From Desulfonauticus submarinus (lineage in GTDB: Bacteria; Desulfobacterota; Desulfovibrionia; Desulfovibrionales; Desulfonatronovibrionaceae), in NCBI RefSeq assembly GCF_900104045.1, contig NZ_FNIN01000001.1, forward strand, positions 1 through 64,000: a stretch of DNA of 64,000 nucleotides. Reading direction: 5' to 3'. The notes beneath the pieces are model-generated. The model saw only the letters and a list, made by a program, of their open reading frames with translations, did no database searches and was not told the DNA's origin. Positions within the stretch are counted from its first letter, which is position 1. Each line of letters opens with the position of its first letter. This document shows, one piece after another, positions 422-21,777 of the stretch. The translations under genes were made by a program, and so were the position numbers.

Positions 422-1780
422 TTAATTGTTTAATTTATATTTTTTTAATTTTCTCCATAAAGATACTCTATCTATGCCAATAATTTTTGAGGCACGCGTT
501 TTATTAAAGTTACATTTTTCTAATACCCATTTTATATATCTTTTTTCAACTTCTTCTAATGAAGGTATTTCACTAAAATCTTTATGGTAGATTATAATAT
601 CTATACTTTTGATATACTCTGGAAGATCGTCCTCTGTAATAATGTCTGCGTTACTAAGGGTTACAGCTCTTTCTATAACATTTTCAAGCTCTCTTATATT
701 TCCAGGCCATGAATAATGTTTTAAAAGTTTCATTGCTTCTACAGAGAAGCCTTGGATTTCTTTATTTTGTTCTTTGCTTTTTTGAGCTAAGAAATAGTTA
801 GCTAAAATAGGAATGTCATCTTTTCTTTCACTCAAAGGTGGTAGAGCAATTGAGATGACATTTAAACGATAAAATAGATCTTGCCTAAAATTGCCTTGTT
901 GAATTTCTACTTGCAAATCTCTATGGGTAGCTGCAATAAATCTTACATCTACTTTAATGGGTTTTGTACCACCTACGCGAAGGATTTCCTTTTCTTGAAT
1001 TACTCTTAGTAATTTAACTTGTTGGGATAAGGGCATGTCTCCTATCTCATCTAAGAATAGAGTTCCTTTATGAGCTATTTCTATAAGTCCTTTTTTTAAA
1101 GAGGTGGCACCAGTAAAAGCACCTGCTTCATGTCCAAATAATTCATTTGCTATAAGTTCTTCTGTTAGAGAACCACAATTGAAGGCTACAAAAGGTTGTT
1201 GTGAGCGAGGACTGAGTTCGTGAATTGCTTTGGCAATAAGTTCTTTTCCTGTTCCGCTTTCTCCAATAATTAAAATATTAGAATTGCTTTTTGCCACTTG
1301 TTTAATTGTTGCAATAACTTTTTTAATTGCTGCGCTTTTGCCTTTAATTTGTTCTAATATGCTAGATTCTTTTAACTCTTGTTTTAATTTTTGATTTTCC
1401 AAAATAAGAGAACGTTTAGTTAAAGCTTCTTTAGTTATTTTCCTAACTTCTTCTAATTTGTACGGCTTTTCTAAATAATAATATGCCCCTAGTTTCATTG
1501 ATTCTACTGCAGTATCTATAGATGCATGTCCAGTTATTAGAATCACTTCAGTATAAGGATATAGCTCTTTAGTTTTTTTTAGAATTTGAAGACCACTTAC
1601 TTCTGGCATTTTTAAATCAGTAATTACTAGATCTGGTTCATGAGTTTCTAATATTTCTAAAGCTTTTTTGGGAAATTGTATCGGTACTATGTTGTATCCT
1701 TCTTTTTCAAGAATATGAGAAAGATTTTTTAGAGCAATTTTTTCATCATCAATAATGAGAATATTAGCTGAATTTTTCAT
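422..1780 (-). CDS. NtrC-family sigma-54-dependent response regulator
   Basis: The 452-residue protein has the full three-domain layout of a bacterial enhancer-binding protein. Residues 1-120 are a receiver domain with acidic D11/D12, phospho-acceptor D55 (VITDLKMP) and K105. Residues about 145-380 are the AAA+ domain with Walker A GESGTGKE (173-180), the sigma-54-contacting loop GAFTGA (220-225) and Walker B LFLDEI (241-246). The C-terminus carries a Fis-type helix-turn-helix (TRASKIIGIDRVSLWRKLKK). Its ATG directly follows the stop of the kinase gene, so the pair is surely co-translated. It should activate a sigma-54 promoter; the best candidate is the promoter of its own operon at 6475-6490. 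Ligand and target genes are inferred, not shown. Confidence 0.95.
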   Translation of the reverse strand: MKNSANILIIDDEKIALKNLSHILEKEGYNIVPIQFPKKALEILETHEPDLVITDLKMPEVSGLQILKKTKELYPYTEVILITGHASIDTAVESMKLGAYYYLEKPYKLEEVRKITKEALTKRSLILENQKLKQELKESSILEQIKGKSAAIKKVIATIKQVAKSNSNILIIGESGTGKELIAKAIHELSPRSQQPFVAFNCGSLTEELIANELFGHEAGAFTGATSLKKGLIEIAHKGTLFLDEIGDMPLSQQVKLLRVIQEKEILRVGGTKPIKVDVRFIAATHRDLQVEIQQGNFRQDLFYRLNVISIALPPLSERKDDIPILANYFLAQKSKEQNKEIQGFSVEAMKLLKHYSWPGNIRELENVIERAVTLSNADIITEDDLPEYIKSIDIIIYHKDFSEIPSLEEVEKRYIKWVLEKCNFNKTRASKIIGIDRVSLWRKLKKYKLNN

Positions 1781-3202
1781 TTAACTTTCTACTATATTAT
1801 CTTGAGGTATAATGACGCTAAACGTAGTGCCTTGACCTTCTTTGCTTTGGACTTCAATTTTACCGCCATGTTGAGATATAATTCCTTGACATACAGCTAG
1901 TCCAAGACCTGAGCCCTTTCCAACATCTTTGGTAGTAAAAAAAGGATCAAATATTTTTGATAAATTTTCTTTGGGAATGCCTGGACCACTGTCTTTTACC
2001 TCAAAAATAAAATTATTTTTTTTCTTAAATCCAGCTACAGTGATAGTGCCTTCTTTTTTGTCTAGAGCTTGAATAGCATTTAAAACAAGATTTAAAATAA
2101 CTTGTTGTATTCTTCGAGGATCTATTTTTACTTCCAGATCAGAAGGAATATCTATTTCTAGTTGAATATGAGTAGGGACCTCTCCTTGAATGAGTTTGAG
2201 AGTATTTTGGACGAGTTGTTTAAAGTTTATATTTTTTAAGGAAAAGGATGTTTCTCTTGAAAATTCTAAAAGGTTTCTAACTATTTCTTTGGCTCTATCT
2301 ACTTGATTTAAACTTTCTTGAAGAAGTTCTTGTTGATATTTTTTATCTCCTGCATCTATCTCTTCCAATAAAATTTGGAGGGAAGTAGATATATTGTTTA
2401 GGGGATTGTTAATCTCATGAGCCACTCCAGAGGTTAAAGTTCCTAAAGCAGCCATTTTTTCTTTTTGAAGGAGTTGTTTATTCCTTAATCTCATTTCTGT
2501 TAATAGATAGTTTATATTTTTTACTAGGTTTTCAAATTCGTCCCCTGTTTGGATATTAGGTAGTTTATCATAATCTCCAGATACTATTTTTTGAATTGCT
2601 TCTTCAATATTTTTTAATGGTTTAGTAACATTTTTTAATAAGAATAAGAATGTAATAATAGCCAAAGAAATGAATGTTATAATTGTTATAAATAAAAAAT
2701 TTCTAGATTGATTTATAATATGTTGAATTGTTTTTCTGCGTTTACTAATTGCCTTTTCTAAGAAAACAGTAGCTTTTCTACCTTTTTCTCTTATGTCGTG
2801 TATCTCTTTGCTATTTGTTTTAATATTTTTATTGTTTTTATTTTTATTAATAAAATTTGATATAGCGTCTTTATATTGTTTTAGAAATAGTAGCTCTTGA
2901 GAGAGAATATTGTCATTATCTTTTTCTGTTAAAATAATATTTTCTAACTGGTCCTCGCTTTTTTCGATAAAACTTTTTGCTATAATTAGGTTTTTAATAT
3001 CATAACTTATAAAAAAATTTTTTTCATATCTTCTTGCTTCTAAGATATTATTTAATAAAGCTTCTTTTTTTTCTAATATATGTATTGTTTGATTTAAATT
3101 GCTATAATTAAAAAAGCTTAAAAGAGAGACTAGAATAACAATGAAGAAAAGAATTAAAAATGTTATGATAATCTTTTGTCTAATGCTTAGTTTTATTTTC
3201 AT
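1781..3202 (-). CDS. membrane sensor histidine kinase, partner of the NtrC-type regulator
   Basis: About 473 residues when started at ATG 3202; an in-frame GTG 27 bp upstream lies inside a perfect palindrome and is a poor choice. The order is TM1 (about 11-30), a periplasmic helical stretch of about 135 residues rich in Lys, Asn and Glu (four-helix-bundle-like sensor), TM2 (about 168-189), a HAMP linker, the H box [12 protein letters not shown] with H262, and a HATPase domain with [17 protein letters not shown] and [10 protein letters not shown]. This is the NtrB/ZraS style of kinase that pairs with sigma-54 activators. The stop codon touches the regulator start with no gap. It follows the SLC13 permease in the operon, so it may report on substrate or transport state; that is inference. 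Confidence 0.93.
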
Positions 3203-3216
3203 AGCCAAATTTTTGA

Positions 3217-3250
3217 GGCCTAACACCACTTTTAAAAGTGGTGTTAGGCC
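3217..3250. repeat. perfect 34-bp palindrome between permease and kinase genes
   Basis: Two exactly complementary 17-base arms meet with no spacer (arm begins GGCCTAACACCACTTTT). In RNA it would form a very stable hairpin with a minimal loop. On the plus strand it is followed by GAAGTTTTTT, which looks like an intrinsic terminator reading rightwards, although no plus-strand gene precedes it. On the minus strand, the direction of the operon, there is no U-tract after it, so it is more likely a partial attenuator, an mRNA-stabilising or processing hairpin, or a protein site. It lies 28 bp after the permease stop and ends 14 bp before the kinase ATG. Confidence 0.85.
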
Positions 3251-3278: not shown

Positions 3279-5090
3279 TTATTGGATACCATAGAAAAAG
3301 TAAAGTACCCCTAATTCAACTACTAAGAAAAGGATGGTCATGATAGTTCCTGCTTTTGCATAGTCGATAGTTCTATAACCACCTGGTCTCATTATAAGGG
3401 CATTTACTTGATGGGTAGGGAGAACAAAGGTGTTAGATGCAGAAAGTCCTACGACAAGGGCTGCCATTCTTGGGTCCCCTCCTGCCATTACAGCCATATT
3501 CATACATAAAGGTACAAGAAGAACAGTAGCTCCTACGTTTGATATTACTAGGGTAAAAAAGGAAGTCATAATGCCAATGACAGTTAAAAGTACAATAGGA
3601 GAGGGTTGTCCTATTAATTCTAAAACTTTATGGGCAATATAAGAAGCTGTTCCAGTTTTTTCAAAAGCAATTCCTAGAGGTATTAGGCCAGCAAGTAAAA
3701 ATACGGTCATCCAGTCTACAGAACGATAAGCTTCATCAACAGTAAGTACACCTGTAATTACCATGCCAAGTGCTCCTGACATGAGAGCCACGGATAACTT
3801 TACTTTAAAGAAAATAATCTGGGCTAGGGCTAAAGCAAGCCAGAATACTGCCCATTTAGCCTTGTGGGGTTTTAAGATTTCTCCTTCTAAAGGGCTTGCA
3901 AAAGCTAGGGGTCTGGGTTGTGGACGACTTTTTAAAATATGAAATTTTTCCCATGGTCCAAAAAGAAGTAAAGTGTCTCCCATTGCGAGTCTTATATTGG
4001 TTAAGCCACTATAAAATACCTTATTATTTTTTAATAAAGCTAAGGGAGTAACTCCATATAATTCTTTAAATTTTATTTCAGAAAGGGTTTTACCAATTAA
4101 TTCAGATCTAGGAGTAATAATGGTTTCAGCAAGACCTGCATTGGTCTTAGCTAATTCTTCAGCAAATACTTCTAATCCATCTTTTATGGTAAAGCCAAGT
4201 TCTTTGGCCAATATTTCTACGTTTCTTTTTTTACCTACAATTGCAATAGTATCTCCGCCCTCTATAATATCAGAGCTTCTTGGCACCAAAATTTTTTCCT
4301 TTTTTTTGTCTTTGGCAATAGCAACAACAGTGACAAGATATTTTTCTCTGATAGCAAGTTGGACTAAACTTTGGGGAGAAAAATTTTGAGGAACACTTAG
4401 CTCAAATATACTTTCTAAACCCGTGTAAGCCTCCATAAGTAAGTCAGAGATTCCTTTATCTGATTGTCCACTTCCAGAAGGGAGAATATATTTACCGAAA
4501 AAAGCAAAATAGATAATAGCAGCGGCTAAAAGACAGATACCAATAGGGGTTTGGGTAAATAAACCGAATGGTTTTAATTTTTCTCCATTTAATATCATTA
4601 AGTCGTTTAACAAAATAGTTGGACTGGCTCCAACTAAAGTTAACGTTCCACCTATAATTGCACAGAATCCCATTGGCATAAGAATTCTAGAAATAGGAAC
4701 TCCTGTTCTCTTGGCAATTCTTTGGGCAGCTGGCAAAAATAATGCTGCCGCCCCAATATTTTGCATCATACTTGAAATTATACCAACAGTTCCTGCAATA
4801 AAAGTGATTATTCGTTTTTCACTTTTTCCTGCTAATTTAATAATAGGACTGGCAACTTTATTCATTATGCCTGTTTTATCAAGACCTGCACCGATGATAA
4901 TAACTGCAATGATGGATACAACTGCATTGGAACTAAAGCCGATAAATGCTTCTTTTGGAGTGACTAAGCCGATAAGAGGCAAAATAACCATCATCATTAT
5001 TCCAACTACATCTACACGTACCCATTCAGATACAAAAAGAAAAATTACAAAAGCAAGCACAATCATTGTAAGTAGCATCTCTGGGGTCAT
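3279..5090 (-). CDS. SLC13/DASS-type anion permease with two RCK_C (TrkA-C) domains
   Basis: 603 residues, with hydrophobic membrane blocks at about 1-205 and 400-603 and a soluble insert of about 190 residues holding two TrkA-C-like repeats (around SDIIEGGDTIAIVGKKRNVE and around RLAMGDTLLLFGPWEK). This SLC13 (divalent anion:Na+ symporter)/RCK_C layout is typical of bacterial sulfate and carboxylate importers, and in a sulfate reducer sulfate uptake is a reasonable guess. The ATG follows GAGGAGGAATT. It sits among universal stress proteins upstream and a two-component system downstream in one operon. The RCK_C insert suggests control by a soluble ligand such as a nucleotide. Substrate cannot be read from sequence alone. 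Confidence 0.88.
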   Translation of the reverse strand: MTPEMLLTMIVLAFVIFLFVSEWVRVDVVGIMMMVILPLIGLVTPKEAFIGFSSNAVVSIIAVIIIGAGLDKTGIMNKVASPIIKLAGKSEKRIITFIAGTVGIISSMMQNIGAAALFLPAAQRIAKRTGVPISRILMPMGFCAIIGGTLTLVGASPTILLNDLMILNGEKLKPFGLFTQTPIGICLLAAAIIYFAFFGKYILPSGSGQSDKGISDLLMEAYTGLESIFELSVPQNFSPQSLVQLAIREKYLVTVVAIAKDKKKEKILVPRSSDIIEGGDTIAIVGKKRNVEILAKELGFTIKDGLEVFAEELAKTNAGLAETIITPRSELIGKTLSEIKFKELYGVTPLALLKNNKVFYSGLTNIRLAMGDTLLLFGPWEKFHILKSRPQPRPLAFASPLEGEILKPHKAKWAVFWLALALAQIIFFKVKLSVALMSGALGMVITGVLTVDEAYRSVDWMTVFLLAGLIPLGIAFEKTGTASYIAHKVLELIGQPSPIVLLTVIGIMTSFFTLVISNVGATVLLVPLCMNMAVMAGGDPRMAALVVGLSASNTFVLPTHQVNALIMRPGGYRTIDYAKAGTIMTILFLVVELGVLYFFYGIQ

Positions 5091-5237: not shown

Positions 5238-5780
5238 CTAACATAAACAATATACACATACTCTAGAGCAATTTTCTGGTCTGTTATCATTTGCTACAAA
5301 GTCTCTTTCTGCATCAGAAATTACAAATTCAATTGGTATGTTTTGTTGTTTAAGGTGTTCTAAAGCTGCCTCTTTATCTTCAAATAGAATTTTATGCTCT
5401 ATGTCTACTCCGTTTGCTTTGGCTTTTTGGGCAAAGCTTAAAAAAGATTTTTCACTTTCTTCAGTAAAAGTTTTGATTAATTCTTTTTTAGCACTACTAC
5501 TTAAAGGTACTCCATTTTCAGATAAGGGGGCAGCATTTAAAGCCAGTATTTTATATCCCATTCTTTTGGCCATATCCAGACTATAGTCTATGACTTCAGA
5601 ACTAAATTTGGCTCTATCTCCGATTACCAAAAGCATAGGGTCTTTAGAAATAGTTTGATCCTCTTTGTTTAGAAGTTTACTTGCAGTATCCTTATCCCCT
5701 GCCTCTGCAAAAGTAATTGCTTCTTGGTACTGCTCTAATTTTTCTTTTGTCTTGCGGTTAAATAGCTTTTTTAAAAACAT
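5238..5780 (-). CDS. universal stress protein-like protein with a Cys-rich tail
   Basis: 180 residues. After a basic N-terminus (MFLKKLFNRKTKEKLEQYQE) and a segment AITFAEAGDKDTASKLL, residues about 50-170 have the alpha/beta UspA-like pattern (MLLVIGDRAKFSSEVIDYSL, a helix, KILALNAAPL, and a late strand IEFVISD). The classic C-terminal G-2X-G-9X-G(S/T) ATP motif is not evident. The last ten residues carry four cysteines in a C-x3-C-x2-C-x-C pattern (NCSRVCVYCLC), which is unusual for the family and could bind a metal or cluster. SD GAGGAGGAATT precedes ATG 5780. It is in the operon between another Usp and the permease. Confidence 0.78.
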   Translation of the reverse strand: MFLKKLFNRKTKEKLEQYQEAITFAEAGDKDTASKLLNKEDQTISKDPMLLVIGDRAKFSSEVIDYSLDMAKRMGYKILALNAAPLSENGVPLSSSAKKELIKTFTEESEKSFLSFAQKAKANGVDIEHKILFEDKEAALEHLKQQNIPIEFVISDAERDFVANDNRPENCSRVCVYCLC

Positions 5781-5799: not shown

Positions 5800-6273
5800 T
5801 TACTTTATCAATACCAGAGGTATATCTAGTTCTTTTTTAAGCTGACATAATCCTTTGTGATTCAATTTAAATGCATAAACAGGAAGAATTGTCATTAGAA
5901 CATCTCTATGTTTGTTTACGAAATTCTTTATTTCTTTTATCAAAGATCCCTGTTGAATGTATATTTCTGGTTTTATTAAATTTTTATTAGGCAAATTAGA
6001 ATTTATAGATTTTACTTCTTGGTAAATAATTTTTTTATAGTCTTCTAAACTTAAACTTTCAGCATAAGTTATATTTACCATCCTATCTTCTAAAAACATT
6101 CTTATCTTTTTTAAATTATTTTTTAATTTTTCTAAGTTGTTTTTTGGTTTATTAAATGGAATAATTTCTAAAATACTTAAATTTGCTTTCATTTCTTGAC
6201 TTAAATTACATGCATATTGTAGAGCCTTGCGATCTGCCTTAAATCCTTGATTAGCAAGAAGAATAGTGTTCAT
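5800..6273 (-). CDS. universal stress protein family protein
   Basis: 157 residues with a typical Usp start (MNTILLANQGFKADRKALQYACNLSQEM) followed by NLSILEIIPF, a charged helical middle, and a C-terminal strand-helix-strand (HRDVLMTILPVYAF, then a final IPLVLIK). The layout matches the UspA fold, although the ATP-binding glycine motif is not clear. It is second in the minus-strand operon, 6 bp after the 55-residue protein and 19 bp before the second Usp. Usp proteins beside SLC13-type permeases are frequent in delta-proteobacteria; a regulatory or chaperone role towards the permease or kinase is inference. Confidence 0.75.
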   Translation of the reverse strand: MNTILLANQGFKADRKALQYACNLSQEMKANLSILEIIPFNKPKNNLEKLKNNLKKIRMFLEDRMVNITYAESLSLEDYKKIIYQEVKSINSNLPNKNLIKPEIYIQQGSLIKEIKNFVNKHRDVLMTILPVYAFKLNHKGLCQLKKELDIPLVLIK

Positions 6274-6474: not shown

Positions 6475-6490
6475 AGCATATTTTGTGCCA
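6475..6490 (-). promoter_or_regulatory. sigma-54 (-24/-12) promoter of the usp-permease-kinase-regulator operon
   Basis: On the minus strand the sequence TGGCACAAAATATGCT carries the invariant GG and GC separated by exactly ten bases, with a perfect TGGCAC -24 element and ATGCT in place of TTGCT at -12. It ends 27 bp before ATG 6447, leaving a very short leader that just contains the ribosome binding site. An NtrC-type activator gene lies in the operon it would drive. Confidence 0.78.
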
Positions 6491-6659: not shown

Positions 6660-6999
6660 CCTAGTAAAGGGTTAGCGGCTTGCTTTTTTTAGTTTTTTTA
6701 TACTAAGCTTAGTTAAAGAATAGTAAACAAAAGAATAAGTTTTTAGGAAATGGATTGAGATTGTTATTTTTAATTTTTTGAGCTGCCCGAAAGCACGTTT
6801 TATTCTCTGCTGTACAAAGATTTGGACACGTCTAAAACGTGCTTTTGAACTGTGCATAAACTGATTTAGTGGGACAATGGTATTTTTGTAAGGCACGTCA
6901 GAGGACGAGCTTTCTAAAAGGATTGCAATACCAATAGGTTAATAAAGTTAGAGATTGAATTAACTTATATTTAAAAAAAGTGTTAAAGGAGTCTTTAGT
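6660..6999. other. intergenic region with an unexplained inverted repeat
   Basis: No convincing gene. The stretch 6780-6920 looks richer in G and C than its surroundings and holds a 13-base inverted repeat, AAAGCACGTTTTA at 6790-6802 and its complement at 6833-6845, with a 30-base loop. An 8-base direct repeat GCAATACC (6654-6661 and 6925-6932) brackets the segment. It could be a relic of a small inserted element or a structured RNA. The last 50 bases hold the ribosome binding site AAAGGAG for the Lon-type gene; its promoter is not obvious. Confidence 0.5.
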
Positions 7000-9015
7000 A
7001 TGTTTTTTAATAAAAAAAGCAAAGAAGAAGTAGAGCAGCAGCAAGAAGTTTCTTCGTCAGAATTAGATGAACTTAAAAAGAAAATATTAAATGCTAGTTT
7101 GCCAGATAATGTTACAAAAGTTGCTCTTAAAGAATTGGAGAAAATTAAATATATTAGCACATCTTCTGCTGAGTATACTATTGGTCTGAATTATATAAAT
7201 TGTCTTTTGGGATTGCCCTGGAATGAAGTGACTGCAGATAGTTTGGATTTGAGGAGAGCAAAGGAAATTTTGGATGAAGATCATTATGGTCTTATGGAGG
7301 TAAAAGAAAGAATTTTAGAGTTTTTAGCGGTTCGTTTGCTTAGAGCCAAAAAAAAGATAGGGGTTTTAGTGGTTGATGATGAAAAATTAACTTGTTTAAA
7401 TTTGCAGCATGTATTGGAAAAAGATGGATATCATGTGGATTATGCTTTAAATGGAAGAGATGCTTTAGAGTTAATAGAAAAAAACAATTATGATATTGTA
7501 ATTACTGATCTAAAGATGAGGGATATAGATGGATTTGGAGTGTTAGAAGCTGCTAAAAATAAGGATACTCATATAGAGGTTATTATTATTACTGGATACG
7601 CCACTGTCTCAACTGCAGTGTCTGCCCTGAAAAAGGGATCTTATCATTTTTTATCTAAACCTCTTCAGTTAGATGAAGTTAGAGATACAGTTAGAAAGGC
7701 ATTAAATAAACGATTAGTGCGCTTAGATCCTAGGGGACCAATTTTATGTTTTTTAGGTCCTCCAGGAACAGGTAAAACTTCGTTAGGTGTTTCCATAGCA
7801 AGAAGTTTAGGAAGAAAGTTTGTTAGAATCTCTTTGGCAGGGGTAAGAGATGAAGCTCAAATTCGAGGACATAGAAGAAGTTATGTAGGTGCGTTGCCTG
7901 GAAGAATTATTCAGGAAATTAAACGGTGTGGTTCCAAGAATCCTGTATTTATGTTAGATGAAATGGATAAAATAGGACAAGATTTTAAAGGTGATCCTGC
8001 AGCTCCTTTATTAGAGGTTTTAGATCCTGAACAGAATAAACATTTTGTAGATCATTATTTAGAGGTTCCTTTTGATTTGTCAAAAGTGATGTTTATTGCA
8101 ACAGCTAACACTTTAGATACTATTCCAGAACCTCTTTTAGATCGATTGGAAGTTTTATATTTGCCTGGATATACTAATGCAGAAAAAGTACAAATTGCTT
8201 TTAAATATTTGATCCCTAGAGCCATAAAAAGTGCTGCTTTAGAAGAGGTAAAGGTAAATTTTACAAAAGAAGGGGTAGAACATTTAATCAGAGGATATAC
8301 TAAAGAAGTTGGTCTTCGGGGGTTAAATAGGCAAGTGGAGGCTATTTGTCGTAAGCTTGCTAAGGAAATTTTGTTGTCAGCTGATACTAATATTCAGGAG
8401 ATTATTGTTGATGTAGAAAAAGTAGAGAGTTTGTTGGGTCCACCAAGATATGTTTCTCAAGTTTTAGATGCAAAAGATAGGGTTGGAGTGAGTACTGCTC
8501 TTGCTTGGACTCCTACTGGGGGAGAAATTCTTTTTGTAGAAGCTACTAAAATGAAGGGAAATAATGAACTTATTTTGACAGGTTCATTAGGAGATGTTTT
8601 AAAAGAATCTGCTCAAGCAGCTTTAAGTTATTTTAAAAGCAAAGCAGAGGAGTTTGAGATTCCAGAAGACTTTTTTTCTACCCATGATATTCATATTCAT
8701 GTCCCTGCAGGTGCTATTCCAAAAGATGGTCCTTCTGCAGGGCTAGCTATAGCAGCGGCTTTATATTCTCTTTTAAAAGAGATGCCTTGTAAAAGAGAAG
8801 TTGGAATGACAGGTGAAATTACACTTACAGGAAGAGTGTTGCCCATAGGGGGAGTTAGAGAGAAATTAATGGCAGCTCATTTAGCAGGGGTTAAAATAGT
8901 TTTATTGCCTGAAAAAAATCGACCAGATTTAGATAAGGTGCCAGAGGATATAAAAAATAGTTTGCGTATTATTTGGATTAAAGATTTAAAAGAAGCTTTA
9001 GAATTTGTTGTTTAA
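7000..9015 (+). CDS. Lon-type ATP-dependent protease with an embedded response-regulator receiver domain
   Basis: 671 residues. Residues about 20-117 match the Lon linker just before the AAA+ module (LPDNVTKVALKELEKIK, SAEYTIGLNYINCLLGLPW, ILDEDHYGLMEVKERILEFLAVR); the usual Lon N-terminal substrate-binding domain (some 200 residues) is absent. Residues about 118-238 are a full receiver domain with D126/D127, phospho-acceptor D170 (VITDLKM), T198 and K220. The Lon AAA+ module resumes at once: Walker A GPPGTGKT (253-260), Walker B FMLDEMDK (317-324). The protease domain has catalytic S579 (PKDGPSAG) and K622 (GGVREKL), so it should be active. A receiver placed in the loop leading to Walker A suggests phosphorylation control of ATPase or oligomer state. 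It is divergent from the kinase/sigma-54 operon, whose kinase is a candidate phosphodonor. SD AAAGGAG precedes the ATG. Confidence 0.95.
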   Translation: MFFNKKSKEEVEQQQEVSSSELDELKKKILNASLPDNVTKVALKELEKIKYISTSSAEYTIGLNYINCLLGLPWNEVTADSLDLRRAKEILDEDHYGLMEVKERILEFLAVRLLRAKKKIGVLVVDDEKLTCLNLQHVLEKDGYHVDYALNGRDALELIEKNNYDIVITDLKMRDIDGFGVLEAAKNKDTHIEVIIITGYATVSTAVSALKKGSYHFLSKPLQLDEVRDTVRKALNKRLVRLDPRGPILCFLGPPGTGKTSLGVSIARSLGRKFVRISLAGVRDEAQIRGHRRSYVGALPGRIIQEIKRCGSKNPVFMLDEMDKIGQDFKGDPAAPLLEVLDPEQNKHFVDHYLEVPFDLSKVMFIATANTLDTIPEPLLDRLEVLYLPGYTNAEKVQIAFKYLIPRAIKSAALEEVKVNFTKEGVEHLIRGYTKEVGLRGLNRQVEAICRKLAKEILLSADTNIQEIIVDVEKVESLLGPPRYVSQVLDAKDRVGVSTALAWTPTGGEILFVEATKMKGNNELILTGSLGDVLKESAQAALSYFKSKAEEFEIPEDFFSTHDIHIHVPAGAIPKDGPSAGLAIAAALYSLLKEMPCKREVGMTGEITLTGRVLPIGGVREKLMAAHLAGVKIVLLPEKNRPDLDKVPEDIKNSLRIIWIKDLKEALEFVV

Positions 9016-10605
9016 AATATATTCAGGCAGAGGTATTTTTTTACAAATTAAAGGCAGTTTTAACTGATTTCCTGTATCTCCAGGTTTGAGTTTAGATGAT
9101 TTCCATGCTTCATACCAGCCTGGCTTCATTAAAATAACTTTAGCGGCATTAAGAAAGTTTTGCTTTCTAAATACTCCATAGGGAAGTAAGCCATCTCCAA
9201 ATAATTGTTTTTCTATTTCTTCGCTTATTTTTTTTAAAAGAGAATTAATAGAATCAGGTATTGTTTTTAATTCAATACAAAATAGATAACAAAAATTTTT
9301 ATTGTCTACAACCATACACCAATGTGTTATTCCAATAGATAGATTTTTTTGCATTTTATTAACTGCTTTTGAGATTAATAGAGGAGAACTTTTTTCTCCA
9401 CATATATTAGCTATTTCTCCTGATTTGCTTTCAAAAATAATATTGGGAGTTGTTCCTGTAAAACTTTCAACTCTAACTAAATCATGCATAGCATAACGAT
9501 ATAAACCAGACCATGTTGTAATATACATCTCGTAAACTTTGCCTTTTTCTAATTCATGGGCAAGAAGAAAATTTTTTTTATCATCTGGTAGGCAAAACTC
9601 AAAAAATATACCAAATACTGCAAGAGGTGCTGCTGGAGTTTCTGCTTTTAAGGGAATAGTAAATTTACCTTCGCTTGCACCATATCCACAGTCCATAAAG
9701 CTAATGTTTGGAAACATGTTTCTTATTGTTTCCACATAACGACCAACAGAGCCTCCAAGCCAGCAACTTATTACCTGTAAATTAGGCCAATAGTTTTTAG
9801 GTGTGAGAGGAGATTTGTTTTTTATCATTTGGTGTTTTAATAAGTTCGCCTGTTGAGGTTGAGGACGGAGAAAGGGATTAAGAGATTTTCTTATTTTAGT
9901 TGGTATATTGAATATTGAACTAAGAGTGCCATTTGCGATATCTTTTAAGATAATATCTTGATATTTTATAACAGTATTTACAAGTTGTTTTAAGCGAGCG
10001 GCATTGTTGCCAATGATTAATCTTACATCTTGGGTTAAAGCAAATCTCATTAATGTGTAATCTAGGGCCAACGGATCTTTAATATCCAGGATTTCAAGAG
10101 GATAAGCACAAGTACGAATTAAGGCCTTGGGTGCTTTAATAAGACTAATTCCTGATGCACATCCTACAGGTATGTTTTTTTTACTAGGAGGAAAAAGGAT
10201 CTTATTGACCAAGGGCAACATCATTCCCTCAGATATTTTAGGAAATATTTCTTTTAATGCTTCTATTCTTAATTTAGTTATAAGATTTTTTACTTCTAGT
10301 CCTTTGGGAGATTCCGGTAAAATTTTTTCTTTCCCTGTAGTCCCACTAGTGACAATAAATACTTTTGGATCTCCTTTAAATAATTGATGAGGCTTTCCTT
10401 GAAAACTAGATATTGTATATGGTTCAATATCTCTCCAGTTAGTAGGATTAACATAATTTCTAAAGTCTTGAATGGTTTTTATTTTAGAAAAATGATGTTT
10501 TTGTCCAAATAAAGAATTTTTATTTTCTTTGATTATAGAAAAAAGTAGTTCTTTTTGAATGGAATGACAATTTTTACATATTTGTTTAAATTTTTTTATA
10601 TTCAT
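8998..10605 (-). CDS. GH3-family acyl-adenylating enzyme
   Basis: 535 residues with the GH3 (auxin-responsive promoter) family pattern: an N-terminal segment NPTNWRDIEPYTISSFQG, the ATP-binding loop FIVTSGTTGKEK, CWLGGSVGRYVETIRNMFP, DCGYGASEG, and YITTWSGLYRYAMHDLVRV. GH3 enzymes belong to the ANL adenylate-forming superfamily and, in plants, join carboxylic acids to amino acids; bacterial members have mostly unknown substrates. Its 3' end overlaps the Lon-type gene by 18 bp on the opposite strand, and it follows the ATPase/GNAT gene by 4 bp, so these two form one transcription unit. Substrate unknown. Confidence 0.88.
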   Translation of the reverse strand: MNIKKFKQICKNCHSIQKELLFSIIKENKNSLFGQKHHFSKIKTIQDFRNYVNPTNWRDIEPYTISSFQGKPHQLFKGDPKVFIVTSGTTGKEKILPESPKGLEVKNLITKLRIEALKEIFPKISEGMMLPLVNKILFPPSKKNIPVGCASGISLIKAPKALIRTCAYPLEILDIKDPLALDYTLMRFALTQDVRLIIGNNAARLKQLVNTVIKYQDIILKDIANGTLSSIFNIPTKIRKSLNPFLRPQPQQANLLKHQMIKNKSPLTPKNYWPNLQVISCWLGGSVGRYVETIRNMFPNISFMDCGYGASEGKFTIPLKAETPAAPLAVFGIFFEFCLPDDKKNFLLAHELEKGKVYEMYITTWSGLYRYAMHDLVRVESFTGTTPNIIFESKSGEIANICGEKSSPLLISKAVNKMQKNLSIGITHWCMVVDNKNFCYLFCIELKTIPDSINSLLKKISEEIEKQLFGDGLLPYGVFRKQNFLNAAKVILMKPGWYEAWKSSKLKPGDTGNQLKLPLICKKIPLPEYILNNKF

Positions 10606-10609
10606 ATTT

Positions 10610-12073
10610 TTAGATTAAATCTACTAAGTTATAATATTGTTGAACATAGTTTTTTAACTCGATTGCTTTATTTTCAAATAAGTTAATTTCATTAAAGTCT
10701 ATATTTTGATTGTTTAAGTAAGTATATAAAAGTGTAAAATTAGATATAGTTCTTAGGCAGATTCCAGAAAAGAAAAATTTTAAATTCAAAAGAGATTCGT
10801 CTATATTCCATGGAAGAGGGTTATCTGTGAAAATTTTTAAATGTATAGTTTTAAAATTTTTTATACAGAGATCTTTTATAATATTTTTAAGTTCTTTTTG
10901 CCAGTGTATGCCAAATTTTTTAATTATGATTGTAGTTAACATTGCTCTATTATCTTTTTTTATCAAAAATTCAGTTTTTCTTTTTAAATGTTTATTATAC
11001 TCTTTTTTAACTAAAGCAGGTAAACCACTGTGCTGTATTAAGTTTTTAATAATGATCTGATGTTCTTTTGGGACATAAAGTACACTTTCTGTTTTAGGTT
11101 TTTGAGTTAGAGAAATAGAATATAAAAGAGATTCTCTTTGGTTTGCTGTCTGCTCTTTAATATTTATGAATTTTGCTTTTTCATGAACTGAAAGTTTAAG
11201 AGCAAGAGGACAAAATTTAAAGTGTTTAGTAAGGCGTTGAGAGCCTGTGTGAGTAGTAACTAGATTGGATTCTAAGATTACTATATTATTATCCTTTTGC
11301 AAAGCATAGTTATATAATTTTTTTGCAATACGTATTAAAGCTGTACTATGCCTGTAGGTAGGATGAGTCATAAGTGCTCCTGCTTCTGCAATTTCTCTAC
11401 ATTCTGGAGATCGGATTAATGCTGAGTGAGCAATAACTTCATCTTCTTCATTTTTTGCCACAAAAGATATTATATTTCTCTCTTCTAGATGTTCTTTTAG
11501 TATTTCTGGATAATAAAAAGACGTTTTTGTGTAGGTGTATCTATATGTATGATAGGCGAGTTTAGTAATTTTATAAGAGTCATCTGGGATAGCTACACTA
11601 ATATTAAATTTTGATTTTTCTTTATTGTTAGATTCAATATAAGATTTTTTTGTTCGAGGAATGTTAAAATTTGATATTTTTTTATCTAAAATTGTTTGCC
11701 AACCATCATTGCCACAATTAATAAATTCGAAATTGTCTGTAAGTTTTTTAATAAGAAAAAATTTTAGCCCATCTATAGAGTTTTCTGGATTTTCTGGTGT
11801 ATATTGAGGAATATTTTTTTCATCAATAGGTATTCCTTTATTTTTTAAAATAACTTGAATTAGTTGTTTATCTTTTTTTATTTTAACTTTAACTTCAAAT
11901 AATTCTTTTTCATCAGAGGGAAAATTTTCAATAATATGCTCAGCAGCTTCTTCAACTGCTAAAGTTAATTCATTTTTTTCTTTTTCATTTGCTCCATAGA
12001 ATTCACAAATAGAAAAAATAAAATTTCTAATTATTGGTATTGCTTCAATTTGATAAATCGTTCTTAAGTTCAT
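10610..12073 (-). CDS. fusion of an anti-sigma-kinase-like ATPase domain and a GNAT acetyltransferase-like domain
   Basis: 487 residues. Residues 1-135 look like a HATPase_c_2 (RsbW/SpoIIAB-like) domain: NELTLAVEEAAEHIIENF is the N-box helix, and KNKGIPIDEKNIP plus DGLKFFLIKKLTDNFEF follow the G-box pattern. Residues about 155-310 resemble a GNAT domain (IPDDSYKITKLAYHTYRYTY, FVAKNEEDEVIAHSALIR, EIAEAGALMTHPTYRHSTA, then NLVTTHTGSQRLTKHFKFCP). The last 170 residues are unassigned. The pair with the GH3 enzyme 4 bp downstream suggests a linked pathway: adenylation of an acid and acyl transfer, with the ATPase domain as a regulatory partner. That link is inference. A good promoter lies at 12111-12140. 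Confidence 0.72.
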   Translation of the reverse strand: MNLRTIYQIEAIPIIRNFIFSICEFYGANEKEKNELTLAVEEAAEHIIENFPSDEKELFEVKVKIKKDKQLIQVILKNKGIPIDEKNIPQYTPENPENSIDGLKFFLIKKLTDNFEFINCGNDGWQTILDKKISNFNIPRTKKSYIESNNKEKSKFNISVAIPDDSYKITKLAYHTYRYTYTKTSFYYPEILKEHLEERNIISFVAKNEEDEVIAHSALIRSPECREIAEAGALMTHPTYRHSTALIRIAKKLYNYALQKDNNIVILESNLVTTHTGSQRLTKHFKFCPLALKLSVHEKAKFINIKEQTANQRESLLYSISLTQKPKTESVLYVPKEHQIIIKNLIQHSGLPALVKKEYNKHLKRKTEFLIKKDNRAMLTTIIIKKFGIHWQKELKNIIKDLCIKNFKTIHLKIFTDNPLPWNIDESLLNLKFFFSGICLRTISNFTLLYTYLNNQNIDFNEINLFENKAIELKNYVQQYYNLVDLI

Positions 12074-15763: not shown

Positions 15764-16405
15764 TTATTTAGTCTGAATATATCTTTTAATATAATAAACA
15801 GCACAGTATACGATGGGAGTATCTAAAAGAGCTATAATTACTTTAATTAGATATTGGCCAGCAATGGCTGGTATAATGGGAAAAACTCCATAGAAAGAAA
15901 TGGTTATAAAGATACAAGTATCTATAAATTGGCTTATTAAAGTGCTTCCATTGTTTCTTAACCATAGGTGTTTACCATTGGTTAAGTGTTTTAGTTTATG
16001 AAATATCCATACATCGAGATGTTGACTCACCATATAAGAAGTCCATCCACCTGCAAGCATTCTTGGACCCAACTGGAGAGTAGTTTCATATGCTTTTTGA
16101 TTTTTCCAAAAAGAAGCTGGTGGAGCGGCAATGGAAATAGTAAAAAATATTACAGAAATTAAAAGTCCTAAAAAACCTATTTTTACTGCAAAACTTGCTT
16201 TTTGTTTACCATAAATTTCAGAAATAATATCTGTAAAAACAAAACTAAAAGCGTAAGAAAATACAGTTGCAGAGGCAGCTAAGTTTCCAAATACAGAAAT
16301 CATTTTAGCTCCTGCTGCATTACTTGCTACTAGTAAGGCAGTATTTAAAGATATTAGTGTTATTAAAATTTTTATATCTTTTTCTGTTAAATGCTGTATC
16401 CTCAT
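15764..16405 (-). CDS. queuosine precursor transporter family protein (YhhQ/COG1738), copy 1
   Basis: 213 residues, mostly hydrophobic, with about six membrane spans. Family signatures are FVFTDIISEIYGKQKA near residue 55 and LWLRNNGSTLISQFIDTCIFI near 145, followed by LLDTPIVYCAVYYI at the end. YhhQ-type (VUT) proteins import 7-deazaguanine precursors of queuosine (preQ0/preQ1). A perfect promoter precedes it at 16455-16483. A second copy of equal length lies at 21136-21777; which precursor each takes cannot be told. No preQ1 aptamer was seen in the short leader. Confidence 0.85.
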   Translation of the reverse strand: MRIQHLTEKDIKILITLISLNTALLVASNAAGAKMISVFGNLAASATVFSYAFSFVFTDIISEIYGKQKASFAVKIGFLGLLISVIFFTISIAAPPASFWKNQKAYETTLQLGPRMLAGGWTSYMVSQHLDVWIFHKLKHLTNGKHLWLRNNGSTLISQFIDTCIFITISFYGVFPIIPAIAGQYLIKVIIALLDTPIVYCAVYYIKRYIQTK

Positions 16406-21135: not shown

Positions 21136-21777
21136 ATGAAGCAAGAAGGTAGAATAAATAATTTTGCATTATATTTTTTGATAGCTGCTTTTAGTGGAAG
21201 TTTAGTTATTGCTCAGGTTTTAGCTTCAAAAATAGTTATGTGGAAAGGGATTGTATTTCCTGCTGGAGTAATTGCATATTGTATTACTTTTGTAGCTACA
21301 GACGTTATTAGTGAAATTTGGGGTAAAAGTGTAGCTAAACAAGTTGTTTGGGCAGGGTTTGGAGCTGTTATCGTAAGTTTATTTCTTATTCAAGGAGCAG
21401 TTTTGATGCCTGCTGCTCCTTTTTGGGGAAAGGATAGTGCTTTTAGCTCGATTATGGTCTCAACTCCGCGTATTATTTTGGCTTCTTTGATAGCTTATTT
21501 AGTAAGTCAAACCCACGATGTATGGGCGTTTCATTTTTGGAAAAGGGTTTGTAAAGGAAAATATCTTTGGGTGCGGAATAATTTTTCTACAGCTATTTCT
21601 CAGCTTATAGATACTACTTTGTTTATTGGTATTGCTTTTGGGGGACAAGTTCCTATATTATCTTTAATAGGTGGACAATTGCTTATTAAATTGGGTATAG
21701 CTTTATTAGATACACCAGTTGTTTATTTATTTGTTTGGGTTTTAAGAAGAAATGATTTAGGTTTTCATGAGACATAA
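21136..21777 (+). CDS. queuosine precursor transporter family protein (YhhQ/COG1738), copy 2
   Basis: 213 residues with about six membrane spans and the same signatures as the copy at 15764-16405: FVATDVISEIWGKSVA and LWVRNNFSTAISQLIDTTLFIG, ending LLDTPVVYLFVWVLRR. SD AAAGGAG precedes ATG 21136. The two copies differ clearly in sequence, so this is an old duplication or separate acquisition rather than a recent copy. It may import a different 7-deazapurine or queuine. Confidence 0.85.
   Translation: MKQEGRINNFALYFLIAAFSGSLVIAQVLASKIVMWKGIVFPAGVIAYCITFVATDVISEIWGKSVAKQVVWAGFGAVIVSLFLIQGAVLMPAAPFWGKDSAFSSIMVSTPRIILASLIAYLVSQTHDVWAFHFWKRVCKGKYLWVRNNFSTAISQLIDTTLFIGIAFGGQVPILSLIGGQLLIKLGIALLDTPVVYLFVWVLRRNDLGFHET

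Follow-up and report, generated by a model that had tools for sequence, protein, structure and literature searches.

A Lon protease of Desulfonauticus submarinus with a receiver domain set into its AAA+ module, and its kinase and NtrC-type neighbours

The closest described counterpart of the protein presented here is DVU3303 of Desulfovibrio vulgaris, a Lon protease with a receiver domain, for which activation by phosphorylation was already hypothesised in 2011 (Rajeev 2011, PMC3333781). The NtrC-type regulator DVU3305 regulates both DVU3303-3305 and DVU3302-3298, and binding has been shown for DVU3305 only (PMC3333781); its targets are restated in a sigma-54 regulome paper (PMC4641369). In the fitness data cited from a later study, DVU3303-3305 have pairwise co-fitness above 0.9 (which could reflect polar insertions, because in D. 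vulgaris the three are said to form one operon) and all three are detrimental in chlorate, while the transporter DVU3299 is important in the same condition (Trotter 2023, PMC10102598). The signs are therefore opposite: loss of DVU3303-3305 helps and loss of the target DVU3299 hurts (PMC10102598), a pattern that does not follow from an activator merely switching on the transporter.

An earlier note on the DNA studied here named related putative Lon genes in Desulfovibrio and knew of no functional study of them. DVU3303 is such a gene. We found no phosphorylation, ATPase or protease assay and no other biochemical study of any member in the open-access literature; there is genetic evidence for joint action of the three genes (PMC10102598). 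The observation of a receiver-bearing Lon is correct, its interpretation is plausible, and the idea was already published. What is new here is the family-wide evidence: a single clade of apparently single origin, its distribution, its invariant active sites, its linkage to a kinase and an NtrC, and a matching alpha1 helix.

Architecture of the protease

The window, a stretch of 64,000 nucleotides from Desulfonauticus submarinus (contig NZ_FNIN01000001.1, positions 1 to 64,000), contains a locus of the DVU3303 type, in which the genes of a histidine kinase and a sigma-54 regulator of the NtrC type (422-3229) accompany that of a Lon with a receiver (7000-9015), here called Lon-Rec. The likeness to DVU3303, DVU3304 and DVU3305 of D. 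vulgaris Hildenborough extends to the USP-like genes and the anion transporter, with DVU3303 itself compared by description. In contrast to the single operon of DVU3303-3305, the kinase and regulator of the window lie on the other strand, behind the usp and transporter genes. The features of the locus are as follows.

422-1780, minus strand: NtrC-type response regulator with a receiver, a sigma-54 AAA+ domain with GAFTGA and a Fis HTH; DVU3305-like (Pfam, translation, synteny)
1781-3229, minus strand: membrane histidine kinase with HAMP, HisKA and HATPase; DVU3304-like, the expected phosphodonor (Pfam, synteny)
3279-5090, minus strand: anion transporter, CitMHS/Na-sulfate symporter with TrkA_C domains; DVU3299-like (Pfam)
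5238-5780, minus strand: USP-like small protein (relatives at other Lon-Rec loci match Usp weakly)
5800-6273, minus strand: second small USP-like protein (no Pfam match at E 0.001; fold by analogy with DVU3298-3302)
6476-6490, minus strand: sigma-54-like site TGGCACAAAATATGC, upstream of the usp/transporter/kinase/NtrC run
7000-9015, plus strand: Lon-Rec, LonA-type protease, 671 aa; receiver inserted, Lon N domain absent
7054-7356, plus strand: residues 19-119, three-helix linker of Lon plus the first helix of the AAA+ module (by alignment to the Lons of Thermus and B. subtilis; model helices)
7360-7725, plus strand: inserted receiver domain, residues 121-242 (Pfam PF00072 at 122-231; model secondary structure)
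7375-7380, plus strand: D126-D127, acidic pair of the receiver (D126 in 104/104; residue 127 D in 102, E in 2)
7384-7425, plus strand: receiver helix alpha1, residues 129-142, the expected kinase-specificity surface, common to the linked NtrC
7507-7509, plus strand: D170, predicted phosphoacceptor (104/104)
7657-7659, plus strand: K220, receiver switch lysine (104/104)
7756-7779, plus strand: Walker A GPPGTGKT, residues 253-260 (sequence; K259 in 104/104)
7945-7962, plus strand: Walker B, residues 316-321, with D320/E321
8407-9006, plus strand: Lon proteolytic domain, residues 470-669, with the Ser579/Lys622 dyad (PF05362)

Lon-Rec is encoded by a single clean ORF and scores 736 bits against the NCBIfam Lon equivalog model (cut-off 608). 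Pfam finds Response_reg at residues 122-231 (E 4e-26), AAA at 249-386, Lon_lid at 411-461 and Lon_C (PF05362) at 470-669 (E 6e-82). Against solved structures, residues 19-119 align with the three-helix/linker region of Lon (Thermus Lon 248-348, and B. subtilis Lon) and residues 245-669 with the remaining ATPase and protease, so that the receiver splits the AAA+ module, following its first helix and preceding beta1 and Walker A. An AlphaFold2 model built with 19 relatives (mean pLDDT 80, pTM 0.66) has the first AAA+ helix at 99-117, the receiver at 121-242 and beta1 at 248, and matches Lon structures across the insertion, with TMt up to 0.88 (Meiothermus Lon). In this model the receiver is held in the AAA+ core by connections of 3-5 residues and not by a flexible tether.

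Compared with LonA proteases of family S16 (B. subtilis 3m6a, Thermus 7p6u, Meiothermus 4ypl), the three-helix linker, AAA+ core, lid and Ser/Lys protease align end to end, but Lon-Rec is without the N domain and has a receiver of about 120 residues before Walker A. Like NtrC-type regulators (NtrC1, AtoC, ZraR), it carries an NtrC-type receiver directly ahead of an AAA+ core, and NtrC1/ZraR-like receivers are the best matches of this domain. Unlike in those regulators, the core is that of Lon, the first AAA+ helix precedes the receiver, and the predicted output is proteolysis rather than sigma-54 activation.

Lon-Rec begins at the point corresponding to the end of the N domain in ordinary Lons, and none of the 19 members scanned has this domain, the alignment beginning at the three-helix linker. 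The earlier note had placed the receiver between the Lon linker and Walker A and reported the N domain missing, and both statements hold. Its further view, that the receiver replaces the N domain, does not: the receiver interrupts the AAA+ module, and loss of the N domain was a separate event. A chance or frameshift artefact is excluded by the clean ORF and by orthologues throughout the order, and the architecture is far beyond chance. As the genome retains two Lons of 817-819 aa, Lon-Rec is an additional, specialised Lon.

Conservation, distribution and origin

In an alignment of 104 Lon-Rec members, D126, D170, K220, K259, T260, D320, R382 and S579 are found in every one, and E321, N370 and R440 in 103 (residue roles by alignment). 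Residue 127 is D in 102 members and E in two, and residue 198 is T in 102 and S in two. K622 is present in all 103 members that have a residue there; the other row is a gap, as expected for the L006 copy, which is cut by a contig end. Similarly, the receiver and protease residues are invariant in the 19 aligned members, except in one copy cut by a contig end. The family thus has what defines a response regulator (receiver fold, acidic pair, phospho-Asp, Thr/Ser and Lys) and an AAA+ protein (Walker A/B, Arg finger and sensor residues, with roles by alignment), and the intact phosphorylation and protease residues named from the single sequence (D126/D127, D170, K220, S579 and K622) are all there and conserved across the 104 members. 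A degenerate receiver is excluded for the whole set, in which only L196 and L197 deviate.

Spacing is also constant, with an H95-D126 distance of 32 residues in 104 of 104 members and a distance of 40 residues between K220 and the Walker A lysine K259 in 102 of 104. The equivalent receiver-to-Walker A distance in the linked NtrCs, used as a control, is near-constant too (72-76), so the constant spacing is not strong evidence for mechanical coupling, and fixed linker length as a proof of such coupling was dropped.

The spread of receiver-bearing Lons, which the earlier note had proposed to map, was surveyed with a profile of the receiver/AAA junction, at one copy per positive genome. Lon-Rec occurs in 111 of the 297 genomes sampled from the window's order (26/55 genera) and in 48 of 395 from its phylum (37/246 genera), and this profile found it in 0 of 398 Pseudomonadota genomes and 0 of 54 genomes of one gammaproteobacterial order. 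The window's order includes Desulfomicrobium-like genomes, L003 and G028 being nearly identical. Orthologues have been reported in Thioalkalivibrio, Dechloromonas and Thermodesulfovibrio (Rajeev 2011, PMC3333781); these lie outside our direct sampling, and hence we do not claim absence outside the phylum. Among the best plasmid matches listed there was no convincing Lon-Rec.

In a FastTree phylogeny with 80 ordinary Lons, the catalytic parts of Lon-Rec form one clade with support 100. The Lon receivers likewise form one clade (SH-aLRT 85), within a weakly supported set that includes most linked NtrC receivers. With Lon part and receiver each forming one clade, independent repeated fusions are unsupported, and the fusion appears from these trees to be a single clade of single origin. 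The simplest history would be one fusion followed by vertical descent and loss, perhaps with some transfer, as the Desulfosarcina copy (L009, 59% identical) may illustrate.

Linkage and the shared receiver surface

Among 76 testable loci, each with at least 7 kb on both sides, an NtrC-type regulator lies within 8 kb of Lon-Rec in 69, and a kinase adjoins that regulator in 68 of these 69 (68 of 76 testable); the remaining seven are without a linked NtrC. By our own estimate, chance linkage to an NtrC would be about 14%, as calculated from the 15 NtrC-like genes of the 2.1 Mb D. submarinus genome. Some loci have the kinase and NtrC genes on the strand of lon-rec, in one operon with it; in others the pair is convergent and downstream, or lies past divergent genes. 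Since these arrangements differ between loci, the linkage has been maintained through rearrangement. An anion transporter is present at 27 and a USP-like gene at 41 of the 76 loci.

In the window, the sigma-54-like site at 6476-6490 scores 13.4 of 15, against a 99th percentile of 12.2 for the best site in shuffled sequence, and similar sites on the same strand are present in relatives L140-L143. Directly upstream of lon-rec no sigma-54 site was found, the best candidate (6669-6683, score 10.6) being under the shuffle 95% level.

Several other elements surround the gene. At 6790-6845, approximately 155 nt upstream of lon-rec, is a 13-nt perfect inverted repeat (AAAGCACGTTTTA / TAAAACGTGCTTT) with arms 30 nt apart, which occurs once in the genome and had no counterpart among the inverted repeats found in two congeners; it may serve as a site for a regulator or form an RNA hairpin (hairpin z -1.7). 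A gene of the GH3 family (acyl-adenylate type; 8998-10605, minus strand) is convergent with lon-rec and overlaps its 3' end by 18 nt; GH3 enzymes are best known from plants. The next gene (10610-12073, minus strand) encodes a HATPase_c_2 domain of the anti-sigma type and, after it, a region that may be a GNAT acetyltransferase but falls below the Pfam cut-off. Further along, 15764-16405 (minus strand) and 21136-21777 (plus strand) encode similar integral membrane proteins, by eye resembling a YhhQ/VUT-type transporter pair.

The alpha1 helix of a receiver is the main contact of its histidine kinase and a determinant of kinase-regulator specificity. Across this helix, the Lon receiver is 51% identical to the linked NtrC but 23% identical to 25 unlinked NtrCs from five genomes, whereas outside alpha1 the corresponding values are 48% and 37%. 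Asn134 (N134) is found in 67 of 68 Lon receivers and 56 of 58 linked NtrC partners, compared with 1 of the 25 other NtrCs, and in a sliding comparison the excess identity to the linked NtrC is greatest at alpha1 and at beta4-alpha4. In all five genomes checked, the receiver closest overall to that of Lon-Rec belongs to the linked NtrC; on alpha1 alone, one unlinked paralogue ties or exceeds it in two of the five. Identity at alpha1 is 0.51 to a Lon receiver's own partner and 0.48 to other partners, which means that the surface is conserved and not co-drifting, and locus-by-locus co-variation gave little signal. The natural reading of these comparisons is that a common kinase would serve the Lon receiver and the linked NtrC. 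That the Lon receiver derives from the receiver of the linked NtrC is plausible, but support for this is weak, as are the branches of the receiver tree. In L196 and L197 (G057, G094), which belong to one family, Lon-Rec carries D127E and T198S and the neighbouring NtrC is without the shared alpha1 motif; their Lon-Rec has possibly been rewired to another kinase.

Proposed control of proteolysis by phosphorylation

We propose a signalling system of three components in which Lon-Rec serves as the protease arm. The membrane histidine kinase (1781-3229) would phosphorylate both the NtrC-type activator (422-1780) and D170 of Lon-Rec, whose receivers would present it with the same kinase-facing surface. 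The activator would then turn on the sigma-54 promoters of the usp, anion-transporter and signalling genes, while phosphorylated Lon-Rec would change its AAA+ activity or ring assembly by way of the short connections that tie the receiver to the first AAA+ helix on one side and beta1/Walker A on the other, and most likely switch on proteolysis of a specific regulatory or stress substrate. We consider it probable that one kinase serves the activator and Lon-Rec in this manner, with phosphorylation most likely the activating signal; here we infer the phosphotransfer to D170, the direction of the switch and the substrate. Phosphorylation would likely switch the protease, and a phosphorylation-controlled protease is the best-supported reading because of the active-site conservation, the kinase linkage and the shared alpha1 helix.

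What else might the receiver do? One option is docking, in which it would bind the NtrC or the kinase and deliver it to the protease as negative feedback, with phosphorylation altering binding and not catalysis. Lon usually recognises its substrates through the N domain, which Lon-Rec has lost, and the nearness of the receiver to that of the linked NtrC makes receiver-receiver pairing plausible. However, destruction of the activator or kinase predicts opposite mutant phenotypes, whereas those cited for DVU3303-3305 have the same sign, with co-fitness above 0.9 (polar effects being possible; PMC10102598), and a receiver fixed in the AAA+ core by 3-5 residue connections, as modelled, is not on a flexible tether; we regard docking as unlikely. 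A second option reverses the sign, such that unphosphorylated Lon-Rec is active and the kinase shuts the protease off. The sequence evidence fits either sign equally, but an activating input agrees better with the fitness effects of the kinase, NtrC and Lon-Rec mutants, which share one sign (again with the polarity caveat; PMC10102598), leaving inhibition more doubtful still. It is highly improbable that the receiver, which could compete for the kinase, only drains its phosphate or no longer signals while Lon-Rec works as an ordinary Lon, as conservation throughout a phylum-wide clade extends to protease, ATPase and receiver residues alike, and a sink would need neither a protease nor a constant place of insertion.

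Adaptors, or marks on the substrate, are the usual means of steering proteolysis in bacteria, and to our knowledge no AAA+ protease has been shown to be regulated by a receiver built into its ATPase core. We lean, with some reserve, towards Lon-Rec being a directly phospho-gated AAA+ protease, in which one kinase would distribute its signal to a sigma-54 activator and to a Lon ring switched by a built-in receiver, so that transcription and protein removal would be triggered jointly. The family data make such a phospho-switch testable, offering a defined kinase, a matching alpha1 pair, an invariant phosphoacceptor, many homologues and a tractable host with fitness data. If phosphorylation does control Lon-Rec directly, the protease itself would be the response regulator, a different principle of control.
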